Of a stretch of DNA of 64,000 nt, positions 24,649 through 41,380 are shown in pieces. Made by a program: the position numbers and the translations under genes. A model generated the notes under the pieces. The model saw nothing but the letters and a program-made list of their open reading frames with translations, was not told the DNA's origin and searched no databases. The DNA comes from Nothopassalora personata. Taxonomy: Eukaryota; Ascomycota; Dothideomycetes; Mycosphaerellales; Mycosphaerellaceae. The DNA is taken from contig CM066290.1 of assembly GCA_033816765.1 (NCBI GenBank), forward strand, positions 248,001 to 312,000. Reading direction: 5' to 3'. Position 1 is the first letter of the stretch. Each line of letters opens with the position of its first letter.

Positions 24649-24989
24649 TGTTGCGGTTGGGCCTTGTCCCTCGTCACGTGGGTGGCCTAGGAAGTGTCGA
24701 TCCTCGATATGTCTCTAAAGTAGTGTGAACGAGAGTTCACTACAAGGTTGCAACTTAACACAAGAGTGTTGATTTGAGTTGAGCACGAGGCTCCTATCTA
24801 CTCGTAAAGAAGCGTCGTCTATATAGTGCCATGTCTTGGCGTAACTGATCAGACTGAGCAGACTGATCACTGAGCAGACTGAGCGAACTGATCACTGAGC
24901 TGATCAGTCTGAGCGAAGTCGACCTGCTCAGTTTCGGTCCTTCCCGAAGAATGAGTGGCTGTGGGTTCTTCCTGAACCGAACCGTAACA
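24649..24989. mobile_element. Solo LTR, 341 bp, target duplication CTAAT
   Basis: It starts TGTTGCGG and ends CCGTAACA (TG..CA termini) and is bracketed by CTAAT on both sides. It is nearly identical to the LTRs of the gag-only element at 38828-41380 but lacks two 16-bp internal units. It is a remnant of LTR-LTR recombination after insertion into the Fot1-type transposon. Its sequence is not RIP-decayed although its host is, so it arrived later. Confidence 0.92.
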
Positions 24990-25365: not shown

Positions 25366-26275
25366 CTCCTACTTATCTTACATAGGAGGTCACAGTCTGC
25401 TCTTCTCCTATTAGTAGTATTTAGACCTCTATAACAGGTTGAGCTAGCTTATAAACCTCTAGAAGTGTAGACTAGTCTTTAGCTTTGTAAACCTATCTAT
25501 AACTATCTTAGATATTAGGGTGTACTTAATAGTAATAAGCCTTCTCCACTAAAGTTTCCTAACAGCATTATAGGCAATGTTAATGTGCTTTAACTTGTTA
25601 TAAACATGTGCATCCCTTACTAGGGTAAGGGCAGCTTAGTTGTTACCTCTTAATTGGACTAGTCTTAAGCTTAATACAGTCTCCTAGTTTCTAGTGATCC
25701 TTAGTTAATAGGAATAGTCTCCTACTAACTCTAGACAGTCTATCTCCCTTAGTAGTAAAGCTAGGAATTAGGATTGCTTTACACATGCATTTATAGCTAT
25801 GTATTTAGCTTCTATTATAGATGTTACTATAGACTTTTGCTTCTTGCTTATCTAGGAGACTAGTGCCCTATAGAGGAAGAAGACATACCTAAGGATAGAG
25901 ACTCTATCTACTTTATCTATTGCATAATTAGAGTCATAGTATCCAACTAGGCATCCTTCTCTATGCCTAGAGAAGACAAGGCTAAGATTAGGATATAACC
26001 TTAAATATCTTATAATCCTCTTTAAAGCCTTTATGTAGTAGGTAGATAGGTCACTTACAAATAAGCTTATCCTTCCTAGGGCAAAAGCAATGTCTAGCCT
26101 TATAATTGTTGCTAGCTACATCTATGTACTATTAATACTCTAGTACTCTGCCTTATTACACCTCTTATCTATGTAGCTTAAAGGTTTAAGAGCCTTATAG
26201 CTGTCTATAGGTAAGTGTATAGGTGCTGCCTTCTTATAGTTTATCCCTATCTTAGCAAGGTTGTCCCTAACAAAG

Positions 26276-26472
26276 TGTTAAGGGGATGTCGCAATGTATA
26301 GCACGCCCACGACCTGCCAGTCGTAGATGAACTAATTCTTGCCTTTTGTTCAAGACGCATCGCGCGTCGCAAGGTGTACTCATGCGTGTCACGTGCGGCT
26401 TGGCAGCCGGTCGCGACCGCATGTCACATGCAAGGCCACATGTAGGGGTTAGCCACTGGGCTGCCCCTTACA
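26276..26472 (-). repeat. 3' LTR of the chromovirus (197 bp)
   Basis: Its termini on the plus strand are TGTTAAGGGG and CCCCTTACA. It is identical by eye to 32704-32900. It may also act as promoter for the plus-strand antisense gene that begins 300 bp inside. Confidence 0.93.
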
Positions 26473-26487: not shown

Positions 26488-26773
26488 GTGCGAGCTGTCC
26501 TCAGCTCGCTAGTTGCTACGTAGAGGCTCCTATGTACTTCCAGAACCATAGTTGCTATGCGGCCCACATGCGGGTTGCGTGCGTGTCGTCATGTAGGTGT
26601 AGGTGAGTGAGGTTTGGTTGCCATGCCGACGCAGCTGGTTAGGGGCATAAAACTCCAGCCCAACCCAGCCCTTTCTCAGCACGCTCCCCAGCTCATCACC
26701 TTCGCCACACCACCACCACGCACCCGCACCGCACCATCGTCGCAAGCGCCTCGCCAGCATCATCATCATCATC

Positions 26774-27544
26774 ATGTCGGCCGTGCCCTCCTCGCCGCCA
26801 TTCTCTGGCCGCTCCGCCTCCTCCAGCAGCACCAGCAGCGACAGCACCACCAGCGCCGCAGAAGACGAGCGCCGCCAGGCGGCTCTGGTGCGCGACGCAC
26901 CCAGGACGCCTGGTGGTCACAAGCGACCAGCATCACCCTCGCAGCCACCAACGCCCTCGCCAGCCACCAAGCTCTCGCAGAGAATCAACATGTGCATGCG
27001 GTGCCTCCCGTACTTCGTCAGGGGTAAGTCTCCACGCGCGTCGCCTGCGATTCGCATGCTAACCACTTGCTAGACGAGGCCGATGACTGTGATAGTGTCA
27101 CCACCGGCGAGCTCCTGAAGAAGTGTGGCCGCTGCAGGCGCAGCAAACACAGCTGCGTGCCCAACACCAGCCACGCCATCGCCTCGCTGGTGAGCCGCCT
27201 GCGCGCCGCGCGGTCCCAGCGCGACTTCCTCACGGCCATGATGGGCCAGGCGCCCACAGACCTCCAGCAGCAGGAGCTGGTGGAGCAGATCCGCCTGTGT
27301 GCCCAGCTGGGCAACGACATCAAGGAGGTAAGTCGCTGCTTCGCTCGTGCGAGTCGACTGCTACTGGCGGGGGAGGGCTCTAGTGCGTCCCCTGTGCTTC
27401 GGCTGACCCTTCCTATAGGCCATCAGGCAGTTCAATGCCTACAAGCACAAGCGTGCCGGGGAGACCCGCATGCGTGCCTCCGCCGCCGCCGCCACCACTG
27501 CCGACCAGGCATTCTTGCCTGAGTCACTGCGTGACGACAACTGA
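26774..27544 (+). CDS. Antisense accessory gene of the chromovirus: six-Cys zinc-cluster-like protein
   Basis: Exons 26774-27023, 27074-27327 and 27419-27544 join in frame to 209 aa, with canonical donors GTAAGT (both) and TAG acceptors. Residues 1-70 are Ser/Pro-rich. Six cysteines follow as C74-x2-C77-x12-C90-x11-C102-x2-C105-x6-C112 (final block KCGRCRRSKHSC), reminiscent of a fungal Zn2Cys6 DNA-binding cluster with an enlarged first loop. Residues about 120-175 are helical (SLVSRLRAARSQRDFLT, then LVEQIRLCAQLGNDIKE), and the C-terminus is Ala-rich. It is transcribed opposite to gag-pol and ends 134 bp from the pol stop, so it needs its own promoter, plausibly the adjacent LTR. A protein of the same plan sits in the gag-only element. 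DNA binding is inferred from the Cys pattern only. Confidence 0.75.
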
Positions 27545-27678
27545 GGCGCTCGCCTCACACGCTGCTCGCGGGCTCCTCGCCTGCTACCACTCTGCGTGGC
27601 CCCTGGTGGGCGCGCCACTCTTCAGCTTTTGTTTTGTTTATAGTTGAGAAAAGTTTTGTTTGTGCTCCAGTGCCAGTC

Positions 27679-30600
27679 TCATTTGCTTCTCCTTGACGCC
27701 TCATAGCCGGCTACCATGCGATCCGCATTCGCGAGGCCCTCCGCCGGTTCCCAGCTGTTGTACTCCTCTGGCCAGTCCTTCCACTGGACTAGATACTGCA
27801 GCTTGCCCTTGCGCTTACGCCTATCCAGCACTGCCTCTACCTCATACTCTCCGTCCTCATTAGCTAGAGGGGGTACGGGTCCATCCTCATCGCTACCGAT
27901 ATACGGCTCGAGGAGAGAGACATGGAAGACGTTGTGGAGCCTTGAGTCGGCTGGTAGCGCTAGGCGGTTCGCCTGCGAACCGACAGCGTCCGTAATGCGG
28001 TATGGGCCGATGAACTTCGGACCCATCTTCTTCTTTGGCACTGCCAACTTGAGGTTCTTCGTTGACAACAGAACTAAGTCACCTACGCGGTAGGTCTTGG
28101 CTTGGTGGGTCTTGTTGTAGTAGCGAGCCTGGCTTTCTGCTGCAGCCTTCCATCGCTCCTCGAGTGTAGCGCGTAGTTTTCGCATGCGACTCGCAGCTGT
28201 TACCGCTGCTGGTACTTCCCCCCCCTGGGTCTCGTCTCGAGATCCAGTTGGTGCAGGGGCAATCTCAGGTCGCCAACCGTGCGCTATTTCGAACGGACTC
28301 ATCCGCAGTGTTGGGTGGATGCTGTTATTAGCTGCGAATTCAGCAACTGCAAGCCACTCAGCCCACTCAGTTTGATTGTCACTGCAGTAACAACGAAGGT
28401 ATTGTTCGAGGGTTTGGTTTGCCCTCTCAGTTTGGCCGTCAGTCTGAGGGTGAAAGGCCGTGGATAGCTTGCGCTTCACACGCGCCTCGAAGCAGAAGTC
28501 ACTCCAAAACTGACTAGTGAAGACCGGACCTCGGTCGCTCACTATGCCTGACGGGACACCATAGTGTCGCACAACTTCGTCTCGCAGGAGCCTCGCAAGC
28601 TCCACGGCTGTGCAAGTCTTCGTCGTCGGGATGTACAAGCTCATTTTTGAGTAGCGATCGACTATCACTAGGATCGCATCATACATGCAACCGGCTCGCG
28701 TGCTTGGAGGTAGGTCCGTAATGAAATCCATGGTGATTTCCTGCCACGGTCGCTCCGGTCTAGGAAGCGGTTGCAGCTCGCCGTAGGGTCGATGGCGCCT
28801 CGCCTTCGAACCCTGGCAGGTTCTGCAGGCTTGGACGTATTGTTTCACGTCCGTGCTAAGTGAGTCCCACCAATAATTACGTCGCAACAGCTCTTCAGTC
28901 TTGGTCCTTCCAAAGTGACCCGCGAGGACGTCGTCGTGGTGCATGCGAATCAGATGCGACCTGATTGCGTGATCCCTGGGTACCACGATCGCGTCTCCGC
29001 AGTACACAAGGTCATCCTTCACATGCCATCCCTTGGCGTCCCTCGCGCTTGGCGCCTGCGCCAAGCATGCGACACACTGGTCGTCTTGCTGCTGCGCGAT
29101 CTTCATCAAGAGTGGGATCAACTCACCCGTCGAGCTGTAAGCTTGACCCTGTATCACTGCAGCGCACACTGCTGCTGGTAAAGACGGCTTGTCTTGATGG
29201 GGAAGGTCACCTCTCCGCATTGCCATCGCCGCGCCTATGTCGCCCTGCATCGCCTCGCAGGTGGCAAGCACGCGCTTCACCGTCGGCTCGCTTGTCCCTT
29301 CCAGAGACTCCTTCCAGAAAGACAGCTTACTTTGCAAGGTAGGCAGCAAGTTCGAAGTTTGTTGCGTTATGGCTGCGTAGTCACTGCGTCTCGAAGGCGC
29401 GTCGGCTGGGTTAGTCTTACCCGGCCGATGCTCCACTACAAAATCAAAAGACTGCAGGAACGTAGCCCATCGAGCTTGCCGCCCATTCAGCTGCTTTACT
29501 GTCATAAAGCCCTGTAGGTTAGCGTGGTCGACTAGCACTCGCACCGCATGCGTAGCGCCCTCCAAGTATGGCCTCCAATGCTTGAAAGCCTCAACCACTG
29601 CAAGTAGCTCCTGATCGTGCGTCTCGTAGTTGCACTCAGCTGGTATCATCTTGCGTGAATAGAACGCGATGGGATGCCACTCAGCACCAAACAATTGGGA
29701 TATGATACCTGCGATCGCGAAACCTGAGGCATCCGTCTCGACTCGCGTGCGCAGCGCAGGATCGAAGTGCCTAAGTATTGGTGCACCTAAGAATCCGGCC
29801 TTAAGCTGTCGAAACGCCTGCTCTTCGCTTAAGGTCCACGTGAGAGGGCCGTGCTTCTTGCCGTCCTTGGATCCCTTTAGCAGGTCCGTTAGGGGCTTGC
29901 AGACCCTTGAGTATCCTTCTATAAAACGCCGGTAGAAGTTGCAAAACCCAAGGAAGGACTGGACCTCATGAAAGGTCGTAGGTGTAGGCCATTCCTCGAT
30001 AGCGGCTACCCTGCTCCTGTCCATCGACACGCCTGCGGCGCTCACGACAAACCCAAGGAACTCTGCACTCTCCTGGAAGAAGTGACACTTCTTAGGGTTT
30101 GCGAACAGGGCAAACTTTCGTAGCCTCTCCAGCACCGCGCGTACGGCTCGCACGTGTGCCTCACGCGTCTCGCTGTAGATGAGGATATCATCTAGGTAGA
30201 CCACGCAAATGTCATCAACTAAGCCGGTCAGCGCCTTGTTGATATACCCTTGAAAGGTTGCCGGTGCGTTGGTTAACCCGAACGGCATCACCAGGTACTC
30301 GTAGTGTCCGTATCGCGTGCGAAACGCAGTCTTCCACTCATCGCCTCGCTTAATAGGGATACGATGGTAGGCGTCCTTCAAATCGATTGTAGTGAAGAAC
30401 CTGGAACCTGATAGCCTATCTAGCGTCTCGCTGATTAGGGGCAGGGGGTATCGGTTCTTCACTGTAATCTCATTCAGGCCTCTGTAATCAACACAGAGCC
30501 TAAGAGTGCCATTCTTCTTTGGCACGAACAGGATAGGCGCACCCGCCTCGCTTGCGGACCGCCTAATCCACCCCTTCTCCATTGCTTGCGCAAGGTACTC

Positions 30601-31554
30601 CTTCAAGGCCTCCAACTCAGTCAAGGACTGGTGGTACAGCGGCTTGAAAGGGGGTTTCTTTCCTTCAACGAGATCAATCGCATGCTCAACCCCGTCGGGC
30701 ATCTTGCGCTTCGCCTGCTCATTAGGTGCGTATACATCTCGGAAGTCTGCAAATTCTTCAGGCCACGAGGGGCCCTCTCCTTCAGGTACTGCTGCAGCAA
30801 TAGCCCGAACACTCATCGCATAAACCTGCTTTGAGCTCTCGAGATCCTCAAGGAACTCGCGTGCGTCACGCTGCTGAACCGCAGGCGTCTCTGCACCGTA
30901 GTACCACTGGTCATCCTTATCGGCCTTCACTATCCGATTACGATGCCGCCAGGGTCTACCCAAAATCACTGATGGCCTACCCATAGGCACCGCGTAGCAG
31001 ATGGCGTCACTCACGCGCTCTACTCCCGCGTCATCAGCGAGTCGCAGCCGAACCGCAAAGGCGCCGTAGCAATACCCTGGGTCATGCGCATACGACTCTA
31101 ACTTCGGCAGCCTTGCCCCATCAATGGGTTGCATTTGATGTCGGAGTACATACTCATACGACACTAGGCTGAGATCCGCACAGTCATCCAGGAGAAACGT
31201 GGCCTCGCGAAAGCCCTCACGAGTCTCGACTGCGCCTCGCAAGTGACGCGCTGGACACGCATCCACTCGCCTCAAGGGGTCGACTTCAGGAAAACTCGGA
31301 CTCAGGAGCGACCCACTTATGGTCCTCTGCCTTTTCCCTGGTCGCTGCGATGGACACACATCCACTCGCCTCAAGGGGTCGACTTCAGGAAAACTCGGAC
31401 TCAGGAGCGACCCACTTCTGGTCCTCTGCCTTTTCCCTGGTCGCTGCGATGGACAAACATCCACTCGCCTCAAGGGGTCGACTTCAGGAAAACTCGGACT
31501 CAGGAGCGACCCACTTCTGGTCCTCTGCCTTTTCCCTGGTCGCTGCCCTTCTCA
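27679..31554 (-). CDS. pol: Chromovirus Pol polyprotein (PR-RT-RNase H-IN-chromodomain)
   Basis: The frame is open from just after a TGA at about 31555 down to the TGA at 27679 and has no ATG at its start, so it is made as a Gag-Pol fusion by -1 frameshifting. The following residue numbers start at 31473. Two and a half 33-aa repeats occupy the first ~75 residues. A protease-like segment around residue 95 reads LLDDCADLS. Reverse transcriptase has YLDDILIY near 425. RNase H has TDASG near 580. Integrase has a His-His-Cys-Cys zinc finger near 850-885 and the D-D-E core (MDFITDLP, VSDRGPVFTS, HPQTDGQTERANQTLE). A chromodomain lies near 1205-1255 (YEVEAVLDRR, LVQWKDWP, SWEP). The chromodomain targets insertion to marked chromatin, consistent with its place inside dead, AT-rich repeats. 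Confidence 0.95.
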
Positions 31555-31557
31555 GTC
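31261..31557 (-). repeat. Three tandem 99-bp coding repeats at the gag-pol junction
   Basis: Units begin at about 31261, 31360 and 31459 on the plus strand with only a few base differences. The period is 99 bp, or 33 codons, so the pol frame stays open (RRVDVCPSQRPGKRQRT and following). The rightmost unit, first in transcription, also encodes the last residues of Gag and contains the frameshift site. Confidence 0.9.
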
Positions 31558-32666
31558 AGAGCCTTCGCAGCGTCTACCCTGCGAACCGCTTGCGCGCCAC
31601 GGTCCTTCCACAGGTGCCTGTTCGGGCAATCCGTCTTAATGTGACCCTTCTTATGGCATCCATAGCACTCCGCTTTGGTCCTATCAAAGGTCACAGACGA
31701 TCCGCCGGCGTCCCGCTGGTAACTCGCACCCGGGTCGCGCGACGCCTGACTATGCTTCTGCTGCTTCGAGCCACGATCGCTTCGCCCTTGGTCGCCCTCA
31801 GTCTCTCGCCTGCGGCGACCATGCTGCCCGCGGTCGTGCCCTCCGCTGCCACGCTCCGTGCTTTCAATGCGCGAAGCCAGGATCACCAGTTCCTCTCTGG
31901 TTGTTGGGATGTCATGAAACTTGACGATTGCGGACCGCAGGCCAGGCGCAAGCTTAGCGAGCATATGTCGCACGCGTTGCGCCTCCGTATAGTCCCCCAA
32001 CTGATCCTCCATGACATCCAGCTCAGTCGCAAACTGACGCACTGTCTGGTTGTCCTTCTGTTTCACCGCCTCATACTCCAACATCACGTTGAGCACGCGG
32101 TTCACAGGATCACCGCATGCGTCTCGACAGAACTCCTCAAAGTCCTGGTATGTATACCCTTTAAGGTCAAGGACGCTATGGTTGGCGTGCCATCGCTCAC
32201 TTGCCTCTCCGCTTAGGTACATAACCCCATACAGGACCTTTGACTCGTTCGTCGCATACGTGCCGCCTGAGAGGGCAAAGACAAGAGAGAGCTCCCTTAG
32301 GAATACCCGTGCTTTCTTGATCGAGTCCCCTCTAAAAGGCGTAGGTTCTTTGAGACGCAAACGTGTCGCATGCGATGCGACCGCGCCTCGAGCTGCGATA
32401 TCATCGTCAGTTACTACAGATGGAGGAGGGGGAGGGGGAGTAGGGGATAGTTCTCCGCCGGATTCGCCCTGAGGGTCCGCCGGCGGCACGCTTGCGTCCC
32501 GCAAGATCTCCAACTGTTCAATCTCCCTCTGTATCTCCTTCTCCTCAACCTCTGCCCGAAGGGCATCCCTCCTTGCGACTAAGGCTGCACGCCTCGCTTG
32601 TTGCTGGGCCCTAGGGCTCAGGGGAGCCGCAAGCGTAGCGCTGCTGTCGTCGCGTTCGGACTCCAT
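31500..32666 (-). CDS. gag: Chromovirus Gag, 388 aa, CCHC zinc knuckle
   Basis: The ATG at 32666 is the first true start after the LTR. Residues 20-70 are a charged helix (ARRAALVARRDALRAEVEEK), and a proline run follows (SPTPPPPPPS). The middle (LKEPTPFRGDSIKKARVFL through AKLAPGLRSAIVKFHD) is the conserved Ty3/gypsy retrotransposon Gag core, and a C-terminal zinc knuckle (CYGCHKKGHIKTDC) binds RNA. The TGA at 31500-31502 lies in the first 99-bp unit. Gag and pol overlap by about 50 nt. Gag should assemble the particle in which reverse transcription occurs. Confidence 0.93.
   Translation of the reverse strand: MESERDDSSATLAAPLSPRAQQQARRAALVARRDALRAEVEEKEIQREIEQLEILRDASVPPADPQGESGGELSPTPPPPPPSVVTDDDIAARGAVASHATRLRLKEPTPFRGDSIKKARVFLRELSLVFALSGGTYATNESKVLYGVMYLSGEASERWHANHSVLDLKGYTYQDFEEFCRDACGDPVNRVLNVMLEYEAVKQKDNQTVRQFATELDVMEDQLGDYTEAQRVRHMLAKLAPGLRSAIVKFHDIPTTREELVILASRIESTERGSGGHDRGQHGRRRRETEGDQGRSDRGSKQQKHSQASRDPGASYQRDAGGSSVTFDRTKAECYGCHKKGHIKTDCPNRHLWKDRGAQAVRRVDAAKALTEKGSDQGKGRGPEVGRS
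31530..31536 (-). promoter_or_regulatory. -1 ribosomal frameshift heptamer GGGAAAA
   Basis: In the Gag frame the codons are CAG-GGA-AAA-GGC, placing G-GGA-AAA in the X-XXY-YYZ register 28 nt before the Gag stop. A one-base slip back gives AGG-CAG-AGG, which is exactly the pol frame. No downstream pseudoknot was modelled. Confidence 0.75.
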
Positions 32667-32703
32667 GGCGTGTATGGATTGCAACGAAGAGAAGAATTAG
32701 AAC

Positions 32704-32900
32704 TGTTAAGGGGATGTCGCAATGTATAGCACGCCCACGACCTGCCAGTCGTAGATGAACTAATTCTTGCCTTTTGTTCAAGACGCATCGCGCGTCGCAA
32801 GGTGTACTCATGCGTGTCACGTGCGGCTTGGCAGCCGGTCGCGACCGCATGTCACATGCAAGGCCACATGTAGGGGTTAGCCACTGGGCTGCCCCTTACA
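32704..32900 (-). repeat. 5' LTR of the chromovirus (197 bp)
   Basis: It is identical by eye to 26276-26472 and is followed by CAAAG, the right target duplication. Confidence 0.93.
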
Positions 32901-34571
32901 CAAAGTGTCCCTAGTTAAGTTTTAGGATTCCTCTCCTCCTGTCCCTTATAACTCTTATGCTAAGGATCTTTTTAGGTTTACTAAGATCTTTAATCTTGAA
33001 GACTTTGCTAAGTTCTCTTTTAAACTAGAGAACATCTGTCAACTTTAGTATAGCAATTGGAATGTTATCTACATGTATAAGAATTATAATCTCTTTTTCC
33101 TTATAAATAAGTAGGCATGGATCTACCTCTAACTATATAAATCTAATCTCTCTAAGCTTTAACACATAGAGTTGATTCTAATCTCTAGCTACTTGCTTAA
33201 GTCTATACAAGCTTTTAAGGATCTTAAATACTATGTTTAGTAGAAGCTTAACTCCTAGTAGTAGTAATATAAAGATGTCTTTATAGAGGGTGCTTTCTGT
33301 AAACGCATTGTTTACATCCACTTAGTAAAGATAGAGATCCTTCTTACATATAATAGCTATAAACACCCTAAGGGTGTCCTATCTAACTGTAGGCGTAAAT
33401 GTCTCTATAAAGTTAACACTAAACTTCTATAAAAAGCCCCTTATAACTAGCCTAGCCTTGAACTTTTTAATGGCTCTACTAATGCTTCTTTTAACATTAA
33501 AGACCTATCTTAACGTAACTAAGTTTACTCCTTTTAGTAGAACAGCATTCTCCTAGGTGTTGTTGCTCTATAGAGTATCTAGCTCCTTCTAGATTACTTC
33601 CTTCTAAAGGTGTCCCTATTTCTTGTTATTTATAGCATCCTTATAGGACTTTAGAATTGGGATCTCTTACTTGTATGCAATAACTTTTGTAGTTGCTATA
33701 AAGGCTATCTCCTTAACTTCTTCTAGGAATTTACTATCCTATAGTATTGAATTATCTACTAATTGTATAGCTATAAAGAAAGCTTAGTAGTAAGCAGCAA
33801 GGTTCTCTAAGAGATCTATTGCTTCTCCCACTTTAGTAGCTAGTTTAGGTATAGGGACTATGGATCTTAGGGCTTTCTGTTTCTATTTATAGCCCTCAAC
33901 ATTATAGTTAGCCCTCCTCTTACTAAGGGATAATATAAGAGTAGTTACTTATGTCCTAGTAACATTCTTTTCCTAGAGATCTAGTAAGCTTATCTTAATT
34001 GGCTTATCGATTTTCTGAAATTCCCCTATATTCTTTAGAGGCTAGGGAAGTTGCATAAACAGCTTTCTTAGCTAGGCTATTACTAGGCTGCTCTACTAAA
34101 TAATTAAATAGTAAACAGGTTGCTCTAAGGATATGTCCTTCCTTAGCCTCCCTAAGGGTCTCCTAGCTAGTGCATTGCTTAATAGATTCAATTTTGTAAC
34201 ATTAAGATCTATATTACCTCTAGGTTAATCCTTAAAGAAGTATACATATATGTGTTGTTTTACAGCTTTTATGTCTAGTTCCTAAAAGAGCTAGGCCTTA
34301 GCTATGTTTTTAACGTATCTAACAAACACTGCTTCTTTACCTCTATTTATTAGTTTATCACTTCTTACCTAATAAGGCTAGGATCTTGTATCTATGTAGA
34401 CAATAGCTTTGTATCCTTAAACCTTCAAATAGTTGATAGTTGGCTTAATACTATTAAAGGCTTTATCTAGTGAAACCTTAAACCTATTATAGTCTAGACT
34501 ATTTAGTAGTTTGTTCCTTATGTAGGTTTAGGCTTCTAGTGCTTTAGGCTAGAATTCAATTAGCATCTTAG

Positions 34572-35006
34572 TGTTATTGTCTCGTTCCAGGGCTAGTCTC
34601 AAAAGAGAGATAAGTCAAGTCACGTGGCGGTATTATTCTTTGGAGAGGCTGAAGCAAGCTGAGCGAAGATGAATGATAGGAATAAGAGTTGTATTCCAAT
34701 CAGTGAGATAGTAACATGAGTTGAACGCATCAGAACCATAAGGGTTTCTAGCGTTCCTAAATACAAAGGAGGTTCGTATGCCATCCGGTGTTAGATGTCC
34801 GTCTGTCCACTCGACCGGTCGTCTGGTCGTGTGGTCGTGTACGTCCATACGCTACTTCTGCGGTCGTGTTCGACCATGCACTAAGCGCGCGGTCGTGCAC
34901 GTGACCCGGACGTGGGGTCCCTTTCTCTTCCTAGCGATTGGTTCGTGTCTTCTGATTCTTCCTCCCCATGCCACGTCCTGCACCGTCCTTCATCCGAACC
35001 GTAACA
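34572..35006. mobile_element. Solo LTR, 435 bp, target duplication CTTAG
   Basis: It starts TGTTATTGTC, ends CCGAACCGTAACA and is flanked by CTTAG on both sides. It has normal composition inside the AT-rich copia remnant, with several GTCGT-type short motifs. Its last 13 bases equal those of the 341/373-bp LTR family, but the rest differs, so it is a separate, related family. No internal region remains. Confidence 0.88.
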
Positions 35007-36571
35007 CTTAGCCTCTTTAAGCATTGCCCTTATAGAGTCTTCTAAGGTTTGTATTAACCTTTTAACTAGTCTATTTTAGAGCGAGTTATATGCCTTAGTA
35101 TGCTCTAGCCCAATTCCTAAATCCTTCTCCCACTGCTTAACTAATGCAATAAGTTCCCTTATATTATTAAGCCTAACTGCTTTTAACTATGCTAATGATT
35201 TCCTCTCTGCCTTAATCTTCTAGTTCTAGAGAGCAACTAGAGCATCTTCTCTTTTCTTAAGAGGATAGGTCTACTTTTTTCTAGAGAAGTTGTTAACAAT
35301 CTTAAGCTAGTATTTAAACCCTAGCCTTAATGTTAGCAGTGGACTATATATGTTAATAGATATAAGGGCAAGTCTTTTAGGTCTTCTCTTAGTAACTTTG
35401 CCTTTGTACTTTTTTATCTTTACTATTAAACACACTCTATACTAGTAGAAGCTATCCCTAGGAATAGGAATAGGTTCTTTTAAGTCTATTACCTTATAAA
35501 GATTCTAGAGCAAGTTCTTCCTAAAGTGTGCAAATCTTCTATACTAAAGCTCCTACTATTTTAGGCTAGTCTCTAATTTAGCAGTTATAAAGGCATTCGC
35601 TATTAGTGGTGCACATAATAAGTAATGTGCCCTTTTTTGTAGTAGAGGAGAAATCTTATTAATAAATGGAACCCCCCTAAGAAGCCTTGTCTAGACAATA
35701 GTTTAGCTAGAGGGGGATATAAGAGAAAATAAAGGAGGTTAGACACTAAACTGCTTGCTAAACTAGTTCTAAGAAACTAGGTTTACCCCTAGCTTAGGTA
35801 TAAGTAGAACATCTTCTAAAACAACTTTCCTACTAGATCTCCTACTTATCTCTACAGTTCTAATATAAGTGGCTAACAAATGCCTACCTCCTACTTTAAT
35901 CTATTTCTTCTTTATTAAGGGAGTTATAGATCTAAAGAGGCAGTTCTAGTCGGTTATATAGGATAAAGCACAAGAATTAAGTAACTACTCTAATAAGGGG
36001 AACTTGCCTTAGACTTCTATAGTTAAGTAAGCCACTTTATTATACTTATTATTATTAGACATTGTCTTCTAGGATAAGTTGTATAAGTTAGGTAGCTCTT
36101 AGGTAGAGAAACCTTTCCTAGTCTTCCTTATTTTAGAGGAAGGAGACTAGGCCTAGTTCTTCTAGAGTGATATTATATTAGAGCTAAGTTTCTTCACTAT
36201 TTTCTTAAGTTCCTCTATAGAGGACTTCTCTCTTAGTGTTCTTCTTAAAGATAGTAGTAGAGATCTTCTCTTCTTAATATATATTACATTCTAGGAGGAT
36301 AGTGCTTAGGAATGAGATCTAAGGACCTTCTTTGCCTTAGAGAGACTAGGGCAGTCCTTAATAAGATAGTCCTTCTTATAGAGAAGGCAGGAAAGTAATC
36401 TTACCTAACCTAAGGGCCTAACCTAGGTAGCTACTATACTATACTTAGCCTTAGAGGGATTTAATCTAGCCTCTTAAGCCTTAAGGATCTTTAAGGTCCT
36501 TTTATAATCTATCTTTAGCTAAGCTATAATAGTATCCCTAGCTATATAGTAGTTAGGTAGTAGTAAGCTTA

Positions 36572-36912
36572 TGTTGCGGTTGGGCCTTGTCCCTCATCAC
36601 GTGGGTGGCCTAGGAAGTGTCGATCCTCGATATGTCTCTAAAGTAGTGTGAACGAGAGTTCACTACAAGGTTGCAACTTAACACAAGAGTGTTGATTTGA
36701 GTTGAGCACGAGGCTCCTATCTACTCGTAAAGAAGCGTCGTCTATATAGTGCCATGTCTTGGCGTAACTGATCAGACTGAGCAGACTGATCACTGAGCAG
36801 ACTGAGCGAACTGATCACTGAGCTGATCAGTCTGAGCGAAGTCGACCTGCTCAGTTTCGGTCCTTCCCGAAGAATGAGTGGCTGTGGGTTCTTCCTGAAC
36901 CGAACCGTAACA
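36572..36912. mobile_element. Solo LTR, 341 bp, target duplication GCTTA
   Basis: This is the second solo copy of the gag-only element's LTR family, flanked by GCTTA on both sides and inserted in the copia element. It matches the copy at 24649-24989 almost base for base (one visible G-to-A change near its start). Confidence 0.92.
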
Positions 36913-37901
36913 GCTTAAAAGCTAGGTTATTCTTATATTAGCTTTCCTATAGTGCTAGCCCTCTAGGTTAACATTAGCAATCCTCCTTCTAAGAGACACT
37001 AGGTGTGCCTATGCAGATCTAATAGTGAACTCTTCACTTATCTTAAAGTTCACAAACTGTTTTGTAAGCTTATATGTATAGGTTAGTAACACCTAGCTAT
37101 ACTTGTTCTAGAGATGCACCTATATCTTAGTAGCTTTTCTAGATTCGTAAGAGCCCTTAAGCTTAAATTTATCTTCTTCTATAATCCTACTTAGGATACT
37201 AAAGCAGCAAGCTGCATTTTGTTTTGTCTATGTTAGTGCATTAAGAATCTCTTTAATCTTAGTCTCTTCCTAGAGTTTTAGGTTCTTGCCCTTAATGTTG
37301 TTAAATAACACTTCTAACAGGTTATCAATTGCAAAGAATGCTAACTGGCTCTCTATCTTATATCTCTAAAGGTTAAACCATCTCTTCTAGTTGTCTCTCC
37401 TAAGAATTGGGATTTTAGTTCCCTTCTCTTCTCCTTTCTCTTAGTGTAAATCTATAATAAATTGAATGTAATAAAACAAGGTATATATGCTTTAAGGTCG
37501 TAGCTTAGGTCCTACTAAGGCTTTTGGTATAGAATAGTAAGGTTCGTAGGTGTAGATACTAAGGCCTGCTTAGTAGAGTAAAGAAAGAGCGGTATAGTCT
37601 CGGAGCTAGGACACAGGTCTATCTCTCCTAGCAGAGTTCCAAATAACTTACTTAAAGTCCTTCTTAATAGTATCTCGATGCAGTTCTGCCTATAGAGTGT
37701 CTTTAAGGTATTAGCTTATAGTAAGCCGTATAGAGTCCTTTTCTAGATTACCTATCACTTAGTATTAAACTAAGCTCCTTAATAGGACAGATAGGGTAGA
37801 CTTCTACTTCCTAGATGTTTTCTACTATAATAGCAAGGGATACAAGTAACCTGTACTAATATAGGTTGCTCTTACTCCTACACAAACCCGGGCTTATAAC
37901 C

Positions 37902-38148
37902 TATTAAGTTAAGACCTTATAGGATACGTAGTTAGCAGCGGAGTAGAGTAAGAGATTAATCTTCAACTAGCTAATAGCTATAGGGCATGTAGCAATATAT
38001 TAGGAACTAATGTGTTAATTGTATTAGATGTCTATCTAAGCTAAAGGGGAGAGAAGGTGTCTTCCGATAAGCTAAGTTATCGTAGATGCCTTAGGCTATT
38101 AGATTACAACCTAACTATTAGCTCCCCTTAAGATGCTACATCTTAACA
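37902..38148 (-). repeat. Right (5') LTR of the copia element
   Basis: This is the decayed partner of 25119-25365. The first bases have become TATTAAG from TGTTAAG. It is followed by the TAGCT duplication. Confidence 0.85.
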
Positions 38149-38827
38149 TAGCTCCCTAATTGTCTTAAGCTCTTAATTCTTCGAAGAGCCCTTTGCTACG
38201 CTTCCGCTTCCTCTTCTTAAGGTTAAGGGTAGTAACGAAGCCTCTATTCTTAGCCTTAAGGATAGCATTCTCCGTTGTAATAGCGACAATCGTATTCTCG
38301 AGCTTCTTAAGCTTTAGGGTATTAACGTTAGCGACAACGTCCTATAGCAAGTTACGGAGCTTTCGCTAGTTACTAGTAGACAATATCGAGTCGGCTAACT
38401 TGCTAGATAAAGGCCGTAAGCTCTTATTCGAAGGTAAGGCCTTAGGAAAGATGCTAAGCACTACTAAGGGATCGAAGGGATTAAGGTCTATTCTCGTCTA
38501 TCCGGATGCTATATTCTTCGTAGTAAAGGCCTTGATCTAAGCTAGCTAGAATAAGACGAGGAAATCACGCTTTGTAACACTTAAGAGGCCTTAGTAGTTG
38601 TAGATGAATGTATCGAGCTATTAACTATAGTAGATCCCTAGGGGTGCAAATAACGACACGTCTAGTGGCTGTAGCCTATGAGTTAAATGCGGTGGATACA
38701 CCCTAACTAGTATCTTATTACTATAGGCCTATTCGAGGAAAGCTATGTTAATATAAGAGCCGTAGCTATTAATATATAGTAACCTATATTCCCTTCGAGC
38801 CTTATCCTTTATATAACGATAGAACAC

Positions 38828-39200
38828 TGTTGCGGTTGGGCCTTGTCCCTCGTCACGTGGGTGGCCTAGGAAGTGTCGATCCTCGATATGTCTCTAAAGT
38901 AGTGTGAACGAGAGTTCACTACAAGGTTGCAACTTAACACAAGAGTGTTGATTTGAGTTGAGCACGAGGCTCCTATCTACTCGTAAAGAAGCGTCGTCTA
39001 TATAGTGCCATGTCTTGGCGTAACTGATCAGACTGAGCAGACTGATCACTGAGCAGACTGATCACTGAGCAGACTGATCACTGAGCAGACTGAGCGAACT
39101 GATCACTGAGCTGATCAGTCTGAGCGAAGTTGACCTGCTCAGTTTCGGTCCTTCCCGAAGAATGAGTGGCTGTGGGTTCTTCCTGAACCGAACCGTAACA
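38828..39200 (-). repeat. 3' LTR of the gag-only element (373 bp)
   Basis: It contains four-plus tandem 16-bp units of the ACTGAGCAGACTGATC type at about 39025-39110. The solo copies have two fewer units, which accounts exactly for 373 against 341 bp. A TCTATATAG motif lies about 170 bp from its left end. Confidence 0.92.
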
Positions 39201-39215
39201 CCATCCCCCTCTTAG
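39201..39215 (-). other. Polypurine tract of the gag-only element
   Basis: On the minus strand CTAAGAGGGGGATGG abuts the 3' LTR, which fixes the element's orientation. Confidence 0.7.
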
Positions 39216-39260
39216 TCTAGTTCCGTCCCGGAACTTCTTACATAACCCGCTTGTCACCGT

Positions 39261-39951
39261 ATGTTTCGAGCTGCACCCGCAATGTCTTCCTCCAAATCGT
39301 TTTCTAAAACATCTCTTCGAAGAAAGGCGCTCGCCATCGATATTGAGAGAACCGGTGTTGAAATGGCTCCTTGTCATCATTGCCGTGCCGCAAGGGTCCC
39401 TGCCCTCGCCGATCGTCCGAAGTGCATCGTGTCGCCCCGTTCCGGAAAATGCTCAGAGTGTATACGCAAAGGATACTCCGATTGCGATGTGACACTTTCG
39501 GCACACGAGTGGACGAAATTTCGCGATATCCGTGACGGTCTCCAACGTGAGCTCGAGCGTGCGGAGGAGAAGGAGGTGGAGCTTCTCCATCAGCAAGCCG
39601 AGCTGGCCCAGCGTATCATACGCCAAAAGGCCAAGAAGATTTGTCTTCGCAAGCAGCTTCGCCTCGCATCCGGCAAGGCCGACGATGCTGTGGCGAAGGA
39701 GCTTGAAGAGCTTGAGGCTGAGGATCGGGAGGGGGAAGGTGCTGCTGGCGTTGAGACGACATCCTCTGGCAAGGAACTCGATCCTTGGCAGATGCCGCCT
39801 CAGGATTGGGAACAGCTGTGTGACCCTTCCTTTCCTTGGACCGTCCCTCCGCTGGCCTCCTTGTCGTAAGTTCTTATCCAGTAGTCGTGTTTTTGTGTCG
39901 CTGTATTGACTTCTGTGTCCTAGGCCATCAAATCAAGAAGCCGCTGTTTGA
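39261..39951 (+). CDS. Antisense accessory gene of the gag-only element: six-Cys zinc-cluster-like protein
   Basis: Exon 1 (39261-39865) ends at a GTAAGT donor that overlaps an in-frame stop. Splicing out 58 bp to 39924 gives 210 aa, almost the length of the chromovirus protein (209 aa). Unspliced, it would be 202 aa. Cysteines run C38-x2-C41-x13-C55-x8-C64-x2-C67-x7-C75 (PCHHC, then KCSEC and YSDC). Next comes a long coiled coil (residues about 82-160, LQRELERAEEKEVELLHQQ and on) and an acidic stretch ending in a Trp/Pro-rich tail. The start lies 60 bp inside the LTR, so the LTR is the likely promoter, firing opposite to gag. It ends 27 bp from the gag stop, tail to tail. A DNA-binding or dimerising role is inferred from layout. 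Confidence 0.75.
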
Positions 39952-39978: not shown

Positions 39979-40968
39979 CTAGGCAGATTTCGAGAAGAAG
40001 TTCTCGCATTCCTGGTATGTATTCTCTTCGCGAATCATTGCGTTGAACTCGCGGCTAACCATGTTCTTTTTCTTGCAGTTCTTTGCAAAGTGGCCTTGCT
40101 CGCCACATACGTAGCAGGTGGAACCTTTGCTCTTCAGCCCCCTTCCTGTCCTACGCTCCGTTACGTCCAATTCCATTGGGTCTCCGTAACTAGGGTCCTG
40201 ACTTCTGGCCTTGAAGCCCCCTCTTCCGCCCGCGGCGGGTCTCTGGTATCCAGGCTGTACGAATCGGTCGTATCTCAAATCCTGGAGCCTTTCGTCGATT
40301 TCCTTTGCTACCTTAATCATCGCCCCTAGCGTAACGACGCTGGCGTTTCGGGATAGCTCAGCTTTGACATTGTCCTTTAGTCCGAGGTAGAATTGCGATC
40401 GCAGTGCTGCGTCGTTCCATTCCAGGTCGGCGGCATATCCTTGGAACTCTGAGGCGTATAGCGCTACAGAAGTGGTCTGTCGAAGTTGTCGGATATGTCG
40501 GTCGGCGTATACCTCCTCATTAGGTATCCCGTATAGATCATCAAGTTTCGTCTCAAACTCGTCGTAGTCGTGAAAAATTTTTCGAGTCTCCGTTTTCGGT
40601 GTTTCCCCCTCACCCTGGTTATGGAGCCAGTCCTTGAGGTATGGTCGGAATCCTCTAGCTGCTTTTCCACGTAGGAAGGATGCGGCGTACAAGACCTTGC
40701 TGGCCTCGCCTTGAAACTGGTGTGCGTTGAAGTGAAGGTACAACTGAACCTGCAGTTGAAAAGCCTCCAGTTTGTCCTTAGTCCCGTCGAACGTCTCCGG
40801 CGTGGACACCTTAGGTGCACGGTGGTGGTCCAATGGGTTCAGCATGCCCATAGGAGTGTTGTTGTTCTTGCTGCTTCCTGTAATCGACATTTCGCTCATT
40901 CGTTCCGTGATGCCAGTTGACTGTGGCTGTTGTCGTGACGGACTCCGGGTAGCGTCTCTCCCAGACAT
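39979..40968 (-). CDS. gag: Gag of the non-autonomous element, 329 aa, CCHC knuckle
   Basis: The ATG at 40968 lies 40 bp inside the 5' LTR. A polar N-terminus is followed by the retrotransposon Gag core (STPETFDGTKDKLEAFQLQV, YAASFLRGKAARGFRPYLKD, LRQTTSVALYASEFQGYAADL) and a C-terminal zinc knuckle (CYVCGEQGHFAKNC). The core is of Ty3/gypsy type but clearly diverged from the chromovirus Gag at 31500-32666. The stop is TAG at 39979-39981, and no protease or polymerase reading frame follows. The protein can probably form particles and package its own RNA, with enzymes supplied in trans. Confidence 0.93.
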   Translation of the reverse strand: MSGRDATRSPSRQQPQSTGITERMSEMSITGSSKNNNTPMGMLNPLDHHRAPKVSTPETFDGTKDKLEAFQLQVQLYLHFNAHQFQGEASKVLYAASFLRGKAARGFRPYLKDWLHNQGEGETPKTETRKIFHDYDEFETKLDDLYGIPNEEVYADRHIRQLRQTTSVALYASEFQGYAADLEWNDAALRSQFYLGLKDNVKAELSRNASVVTLGAMIKVAKEIDERLQDLRYDRFVQPGYQRPAAGGRGGFKARSQDPSYGDPMELDVTERRTGRGLKSKGSTCYVCGEQGHFAKNCKKKNMVSREFNAMIREENTYQECENFFSKSA

Positions 40969-41007: not shown

Positions 41008-41380
41008 TGTTGCGGTTGGGCCTTGTCCCTCGTCACGTGGGTGGCCTAGGAAGTGTCGATCCTCGATATGTCTCTAAAGTAGTGTGAACGAGAGTTCACT
41101 ACAAGGTTGCAACTTAACACAAGAGTGTTGATTTGAGTTGAGCACGAGGCTCCTATCTACTCGTAAAGAAGCGTCGTCTATATAGTGCCATGTCTTGGCG
41201 TAACTGATCAGACTGAGCAGACTGATCACTGAGCAGACTGATCACTGAGCAGACTGATCACTGAGCAGACTGAGCGAACTGATCACTGAGCTGATCAGTC
41301 TGAGCGAAGTTGACCTGCTCAGTTTCGGTCCTTCCCGAAGAATGAGTGGCTGTGGGTTCTTCCTGAACCGAACCGTAACA
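41008..41380 (-). repeat. 5' LTR of the gag-only element (373 bp)
   Basis: It is identical by eye to 38828-39200. Directly inside it the minus strand reads CTTTGAGCACCAAAAGCC, not a TGG-type primer site. Confidence 0.92.

Follow-up and report, generated by a model that had tools for sequence, protein, structure and literature searches.

Two long terminal repeat (LTR) retrotransposons in a 64,000-nt stretch of Nothopassalora personata DNA (the window; contig CM066290.1, positions 248,001 to 312,000, or C4:248001-312000 of the 54.5-Mb, 40-contig genome) each carry an extra gene on the strand opposite to their own coding genes. Element 2 is a gag-only element and element 1 a chromovirus; their antisense genes are called here gene 2 and gene 1, and all coordinates below are window positions. 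Comparison of element 2 with its relatives in the genome suggests that the antisense regulator gene and the promoter beside it form a swappable cassette on two backbones. We give about an even chance to the reading that the antisense gene encodes a Zn2Cys6-derived activator of its own LTR within such a regulator-plus-promoter cassette. Slightly below even we place the fuller proposal of a private Gal4-type factor, lying beside its own U3 promoter and swapped between autonomous and gag-only backbones with many specificities.

Organization of element 2 and its relatives

Element 2 has LTRs and a gag (gag2), and the open reading frame (ORF) list and domain scan revealed no pol between the LTRs, as in gag-only non-autonomous elements of the TR-GAG type. 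Its features are:

38828..39200, minus strand: 3' LTR (repeat pair)
38991..39008, minus strand: onset of the constant LTR half, GCACTATATAGACGACGC (TATA box), from LTR comparison
39009..39200, minus strand: U3 portion of the 3' LTR, variable and containing TGATCAGT arrays; the gene 2 start codon is 60 nt from its edge
39201..39235, minus strand: polypurine tract and hairpin AGTTCCG-gga-CGGAACT, the hairpin at 39219-39235
39261..39865, plus strand: gene 2 exon 1, with Zn2Cys6-like domain, long helix and acidic C-terminus
39924..39951, plus strand: gene 2 exon 2, after a 58-nt intron (39866-39923)
39979..40968, minus strand: gag2, 329 aa, with Retrotrans_gag and zinc knuckle
41008..41380, minus strand: 5' LTR (repeat pair); a 5-bp AACAC duplication, read from the sequence, flanks the element

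The predicted product of gene 2 has 210 aa, with six cysteines, all within exon 1, at gaps of x2, x13, x8, x2, and x7. After splicing, the protein ends in SPSNQEAAV, similar to the EPSHQESAV with which the unspliced relative in L062 ends, where L0xx labels denote fetched genome stretches serving as representatives. The original prediction that each element holds an intact antisense gene with six clustered cysteines, tail-to-tail with pol (gene 1) or gag (gene 2), was borne out. A chance origin of the cysteine pattern is unlikely, since it arose in none of 200,000 shuffles of either protein and, of the window's 170 stop-to-stop frames with 100 aa or more, only gene 2 itself shows it (gene 1 is missed by this count since it needs splicing). 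Splicing and expression of both genes are predictions, supported by the splice sites, the codon bias of gene 1, the copy numbers, and the cysteine pattern.

Stop-free copies of gene 2 at 97-100% identity are present in at least 22 places. The genome search with gene 2 gave 150 scored matches of 695 candidates, in which relatives without stops fell into groups at about 97-100, 84, 54, 48, 47, 46, 44, and 41% identity and other matches contained several TAG or TAA stops. The search with the L067 regulator, of a related class, gave 111 matches, one of them a host gene; no relatives of the regulators were found among viral contigs. In 20 stretches besides that of the window (L023, L024, L030, L062, L063, L065, and L066-L079), gag2 was 96.7-99.1% identical to the window copy, and all 20 carried an antisense ORF tail-to-tail with gag2, which was shortened in L074 (133 aa) and extended into the end of gag in L073, L074, and L079.

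At least 13 regulator types occur on the gag2 backbone, some of them without BLAST similarity to gene 2, yet with six clustered cysteines in all. Profile comparison (hhalign) of the three classes gave probabilities of 99.8% (X13 and C), 98.6% (X13 and B), and 97.2% (C and B), by which the three regulator classes on gag2 are judged homologous. The pattern is kept in other copies, as the original prediction implied, the six cysteines being invariant over 14 sequences.

Constant backbone and variable regulator-U3 region

Among the gag-only elements, Gag was 97-99% identical and the synonymous divergence (dS) of gag was 0.009-0.20 over 66 pairs, while for the regulators of the same 66 pairs dS ranged from 0.80 to saturated and was mostly saturated. 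The LTR is nearly constant from the TATA box onward, in two main versions, and the approximately 150-235 nt ahead of the TATA box (U3) differ between subfamilies.

A corresponding structure was found in the autonomous elements L061 and L064, where Pol was 98.7% identical over 1039 residues and the regulators 43%. At the DNA level the two were 97.2% identical up to 97 nt beyond the pol stop, had no in-place alignment over the regulator and U3, and were then 97.1% identical over 207 nt. L081 is a third chromovirus, 74-76% identical to L061 and L064 over 124 residues of the Pol end, and carries a class B regulator tail-to-tail. A constant backbone with a variable cassette was thus seen in two backbones, the gag-only one and the autonomous one of L061 and L064, and the sharp block edges suggest exchange of blocks rather than fast point mutation.

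In L068 (G000:C7:2716352-2719404) two gag2 elements are neighbors, and their middle and right-hand LTRs are identical only from TCACGCC on, with different U3s.

Repeats in U3 and a hairpin next to the LTR

Repeated 8-mers were in excess in nine of 14 U3s (p ≤ 0.032) and in neither of two constant halves. Palindromes exceeded shuffles in six of the 14 at p < 0.05 (Fisher, 3.7e-5, for related U3s that are not fully independent), with TGCTCTCTCGAGAGAGCA and GGATCTGTCGAACAGATCC as examples, and U3 looks like an array of putative binding sites. LTRs of the element 2 type have lengths of about 342, 358, 374, 390, and 406, which are 16-nt steps. The regulator start codon was 60-155 nt from the LTR in all 22 stretches measured (in L064, L069, and L077 the methionine was chosen to match relatives), and this closeness makes U3 of the 3' LTR the likely promoter of the regulator. 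In the 5' LTR, this U3 lies ahead of gag.

A hairpin whose loop reads (R)GGA(C) or similar occurs 17-19 nt ahead of the LTR, directly on the 5' side of the polypurine tract, in 14 of 16 elements (26490-26509 and 39219-39235 in the window, and L023, L030, L061-L065, L068, L069, L072, L073, and L077), L066 and L067 having only a variant. Six different stem sequences were found, all fully paired, and in single-sequence shuffles 7 of 16 reached p < 0.05, making the hairpin a candidate cis-acting RNA element.

Association of regulator and U3

Among the 150 scored gene 2 matches, the regulator's own U3 type was no more than 250 nt away from the start at all 16 places of L061 type, all nine of L062 type, and four of six of L064 type; the two misses may lie outside the best 40 of 179 U3 candidates. 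Hand counts of LTR-bounded intervals gave a matching regulator in 13 of 13 for the L067 type (best 40 of 90) and 13 of 13 for the element 2 type (best 40 of 824). The pairing is thus fixed within four subfamilies and holds in four of six places of a fifth. Across backbones with different core promoters, the regulator nearest to that of L064 (L063) has the most similar U3, and the two nearest to that of L061 (gene 2 of the window and L023) have the two most similar U3s (p = 0.011, in a test chosen post hoc).

Relation of the regulators to Zn2Cys6 proteins

The Zn2Cys6 domain (PF00172) has the spacing C-x2-C-x6-C-x5-12-C-x2-C-x6-8-C. Cysteines two and three are separated by 13 residues in gene 2 and its relatives, 11 in L061, and 5-6 in classes B and C. 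Gene 2 (second gap x13) and gene 1 (x11) depart from the PF00172 spacing. L067, L069, L072, L077, and L079 conform to it, as do L066 and L068 if neighboring cysteines are used, and canonical or near-canonical spacing thus occurs in seven of the 13 types on gag2. The original prediction had proposed a Zn2Cys6 regulator with an expanded loop for both genes. For the gene 2 family this reading fits, because homologous antisense genes with a canonical loop occur on the same gag, and it agrees with the PDB profile matches below; for gene 1 it is not supported.

In Pfam searches (Zn_clus gathering cut-off, 21.0 bits), gene 2 had no Zn_clus match at E ≤ 1. The best of 14 relatives scanned, L069, scored 20.4 bits (E = 5.5e-4), below the cut-off, and Zn_clus appeared at E ≤ 10 in six of the 14, the five besides L069 at E of 0.9-7. 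The numerous coiled-coil Pfam matches of the relatives were below cut-off and were attributed to composition. The L067 protein matched a 771-aa host frame (E = 3.6e-4) in a stretch that itself matches Zn_clus at 3.2e-10. A profile of the cysteine domain gave six PDB matches at E ≤ 10, the best at E of 0.033 with about half of the domain aligned, namely LEU3 (twice), Pho7, LAC9, C27B12.11c, and CBF3b, all of which we take to be Zn2Cys6 proteins. The whole-protein profile gave 59 matches, mostly coiled coils, with LAC9 at E of 1.6, and the L069 protein alone gave eight PDB matches at E ≤ 10, none recognized as Zn2Cys6.

A coiled-coil dimerization segment after the cluster is common in Zn2Cys6 proteins. 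In the single-sequence structure model, a helix (residues 81-135) follows the cluster, at a predicted local distance difference test score (pLDDT) of 64, and coiled-coil matches occurred in the profile search. N-terminal to the cluster, each of the 16 proteins measured is neutral to basic; 14 of them are net acidic by at least 5 over their last 60 residues, the exceptions being gene 1 and L079. On this evidence, the gene 2 family appears to be Zn2Cys6-derived rather than a certified member of the Zn2Cys6 family.

Element 1 and gene 1

Element 1 has LTRs and a pol with reverse transcriptase, RNase H, integrase, and chromodomain, which identify it as a chromovirus. Its sense strand is the minus strand and its features are:

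26273..26472, minus strand: 3' LTR, repeat pair 100% identical with 32701-32900
26490..26509, minus strand: hairpin GCGAGCTG-agga-CAGCTCGC, 17 nt ahead of the LTR and just 5' of the polypurine tract
26774..27023, plus strand: gene 1 exon 1, with the first C-x2-C
27074..27327, plus strand: gene 1 exon 2, with the remaining four cluster cysteines
27419..27544, plus strand: gene 1 exon 3, the last exon
27679..31134, minus strand: pol (pol1), 1151 aa, with reverse transcriptase, RNase H, integrase, and chromodomain
31500..32666, minus strand: gag, 388 aa, with a zinc knuckle below cut-off
32701..32900, minus strand: 5' LTR, a 200-nt repeat identical to 26273-26472

The predicted product of gene 1 has 209 aa, and the frame is open only after removal of two GT-AG introns, with GC of 0.60, 0.57, and 0.84 at codon positions 1, 2, and 3. 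Its cysteines are spaced C-x2-C-x11-C-x11-C-x2-C-x6-C; of the spacing originally proposed for the two genes, the x13 gap of gene 2 was correct, and the second gap of gene 1 is 11 instead of 12. The full 771 nt were present at 99.2-100% identity in 25 of 31 fetched loci tested, which correspond to 23 places since four loci overlap pairwise; in one copy, exon 1 contains a TAG. Searches with gene 1 revealed no Zn_clus match at E ≤ 1 in Pfam and no PDB match to Zn2Cys6, and its weak Rpn3_C and UL92 Pfam matches, below cut-off, were taken as composition.

The two elements have, as originally claimed, different LTRs and diverged Gag, Gag1 and Gag2 being barely related (23% identity over 96 aa, E = 0.002). 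The further claim that both carry the same kind of gene was not supported at the sequence level: gene 1 shares with the gene 2 family the layout, the cysteine count, and the 3' cis hairpin, with no detectable sequence homology. We regard common descent of gene 1 and gene 2 as about evenly balanced. The alternative, in which gene 1 is unrelated and arose by independent capture with convergence on a cysteine-rich antisense gene, is rated a little short of an even chance. It draws on the absence of Zn_clus and PDB matches, a C-terminal tail that is neutral instead of acidic, an LTR without U3 arrays, and hhalign probabilities of 0.35-5.5% against each gene 2 family class or combination, which are not significant and come from a weak comparison with a single gene 1 type to hand. 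Against it stand the same site of the gene in related chromoviruses (pol1 and pol61 are 47% identical in the reverse transcriptase part) and the hairpin before the polypurine tract common to both.

Within element 1, a 99-nt repeat in three tandem copies lies between gag and pol (31248-31546). Among the pol1 matches scored, six copies match only up to residue 973-977; an alternative chromodomain end was considered for such copies and rejected, since the sole copy inspected (L034) encodes nearly the same protein in another frame.

Other copies and repeats

Three solo LTRs lie in the window, and Rfam gave no match within it:

24649..24989, minus strand: solo LTR of element 2 type (repeat match)
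34574..35006, minus strand: solo LTR of the type of the autonomous L064, U3 at 34772-35006, other end set by eye
36572..36912, minus strand: solo LTR of element 2 type (repeat match)

Decayed copies contained many TAG and TAA and almost no TGA stops, a pattern as would be expected from CpA-type repeat-induced point mutation (RIP). Open copies, which indicate recent activity alongside repeat mutation, comprised 121 of the best 122 copies of gag2 (1039 candidates) and 20 of 40 scored pol1 genome matches, the latter full length and stop-free. In L070 (G000:C12:1354000-1367600), six gag2 copies at 2056-nt spacing are arranged in tandem with common LTRs in the part fetched, and the array adjoins a truncated gag2 fused to the regulator and U3 type of L064. 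A gene 2 relative at 45% identity, with two TAG and two TAA stops and perhaps introns, is repeated at several sites (G000:C9:5379 and 20183, C20, C21, C30-C34, C39, and C40), on short contigs and near one contig end, twice as pairs 14.8 kb apart, and is possibly a subtelomeric repeat.

Proposed mechanism and alternative explanations

In the proposed mechanism, the antisense protein would dimerize and bind repeats or palindromes within the U3 of its element's LTRs. Sense transcription from the 5' LTR would thereby be turned on, as would the protein's own antisense mRNA from the U3 of the 3' LTR beside the start codon. The 3' end of the element holds the regulator gene, polypurine tract, and U3 side by side, so that recombination could exchange the three as a single cassette; the remainder (gag, pol, core promoter, R, and U5) would stay nearly constant. 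With these parts contiguous at the RNA 3' end, template switching may transfer the protein along with its site, and the antisense, terminal position of the gene would thereby be explained. The gag-only elements probably owe their movement to autonomous relatives whose LTR termini and polypurine tract are similar. Zinc binding, U3 binding, activation over repression, the start sites, mobilization in trans, and an equal role for gene 1 are inferred parts of this proposal.

Several results weigh against this mechanism. Regulator identity and U3 similarity were not correlated over 15 representatives (Mantel rho -0.10, p = 0.81), over 13 gag2 types (rho -0.08, p = 0.71), or across backbones (rho 0.00, p = 0.55); distant U3s that are unalignable may account for this failure, which is counted here all the same. 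L065 and L066 have identical LTRs and regulators of different classes (27% identical), that U3 is missing at the four remaining copies of the L066 regulator (all 16 U3 candidates scored), and L066 and L067 have regulators 62% identical with dissimilar U3s. Pairing within subfamilies could reflect mere linkage or recent common descent, and most genome match lists behind the pairing counts hold the best 40 matches. The element 1 LTR has neither a repeat excess nor a significant palindrome. Purifying selection is indicated in the closest regulator pairs where measurable, with dN/dS of 0.09, 0.15, 0.16, and 0.23 (the fifth pair, gene 2 of the window and L061, being saturated), but three of these four values come from dS near 2 and are unreliable, leaving only 0.09 (dS 0.80) as firm.

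The main rival, which we consider unlikely, is a sequence-specific anti-silencing factor similar to VANC, which would bind the U3 arrays and remove silent chromatin. VANC targets are described as often being tandem repeats, which vary considerably between related elements (available text of PMC5735166 and PMC10398659), a pattern similar to that seen here, and the genome evidently damages its elements, many copies having several to dozens of TAG or TAA stops. This damage looks like RIP, however, a mutation that a bound protein would not obviously reverse; the acidic C-terminus fits an activator, and the variable sites are located directly upstream of the TATA box.

Somewhat less probable is another role for the protein, such as RNA packaging, integration targeting, or nuclear import, its variation being due to host defense and U3 varying independently. 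A cysteine cluster could also bind RNA, and the missing global correlation between regulator and U3 and the mismatch of L065 and L066 agree with such a role; the sharp block boundaries shared by regulator and U3, the repeats in U3 that are absent from the two constant halves, and the Zn2Cys6 profile matches do not.

Improbable in our view is a self-limiting repressor serving copy-number control or immunity against elements of the same type, to which element-specific DNA binding would be equally useful, with the same anatomy and private specificities acting as incompatibility groups; 14 of the 16 proteins have acidic tails, and the many copies per type, for instance at least 26 places of the L067 regulator, argue against strong self-limitation. 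That the antisense transcript and not the protein is the active agent, by double-stranded RNA or interference, would suit the convergent tail-to-tail layout and is discussed as an option for such genes in the available text of PMC7264820, but is very improbable given dN/dS of 0.09-0.23 in the four measurable closest pairs and six invariant cysteines over 14 sequences.

For an activator of its own LTR, and likewise for the self-regulation or counter-silencing suggested in the original prediction, the site beside U3 of the 3' LTR and the fact that protein and U3 are the two variable parts speak in favor, short of proof.

Relation to known systems and significance

TR-GAG elements, listed for plants, consist of LTRs and gag without pol and resemble element 2; they are not known to carry an antisense regulator. 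The retroviral transactivators Tax and Tat act on the LTR and are unrelated to the regulators described here, and for Tax, Tat, and HBZ we know of no cassette exchange. VANDAL elements are plant DNA transposons, and VANC belongs to another protein family.

The original prediction also took the layout to be undescribed in fungal LTR elements, which is contradicted by brtn, an antisense gene reported in Boty of Botrytis (PMC7264820, PMC11963269). In Boty-like elements of Botrytis and Sclerotinia, brtn is likewise an extra antisense gene of a fungal gag-pol element with chromodomain; by comparison of descriptions, the available text of PMC7264820, PMC4227169, and PMC8365987 does not report variable cassettes, coupling to U3, or gag-only carriers. 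Antisense genes between pol and 3' LTR are also known in plant elements, such as gene23 of Grande, RIRE2, and Retand (TRP28); the Grande product is nuclear, TRP28 is a predicted DNA binder, and some Retand elements are non-autonomous, many with tandem repeats (PMC7264820, PMC11963269). These plant genes encode another protein domain, Retand belongs to a plant non-chromovirus lineage, and a co-varying U3 is not described in the available text. The review PMC7264820, as far as its text is available, states that it is not known what the antisense accessory genes of LTR elements do.

In behavior only, VANC of VANDAL transposons is similar as an element-encoded, sequence-specific protein with fast-changing tandem-repeat targets, related VANCs acting on different elements, and differs in causing loss of DNA methylation (available text of PMC5735166 and PMC10398659). 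The Tnt1 superfamily also combines a constant coding part with a hypervariable U3, but no element-encoded regulator is described in the available text of PMC1838419. HBZ of human T-cell leukemia virus type 1 (HTLV-1), an unrelated protein, is likewise a nuclear regulator encoded antisense (PMC11963269, available text).

Antisense genes near the 3' LTR, U3 modularity, and the combination of a protein with repeats (VANC) are thus already known from the available text of these sources. In the open-licence papers searched, neither a zinc-cluster gene carried by an LTR element nor a cassette of regulator and U3 appeared; such a regulator, and its joint exchange with U3, may nevertheless be published. 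Should the proposed mechanism hold, we know of no earlier LTR element in which an antisense gene encodes a zinc-cluster activator acting on its own LTR. What antisense genes do can be answered in a testable way from the anatomy, in which the gene lies next to the promoter it would control and both differ among elements that are nearly identical otherwise. If true, these elements would be the retrotransposon equivalent of regulator-promoter types that can be swapped, and would supply small, naturally distinct regulator-promoter pairs; diversifying such a pair would be how selfish elements evade shared control or silencing by the host.

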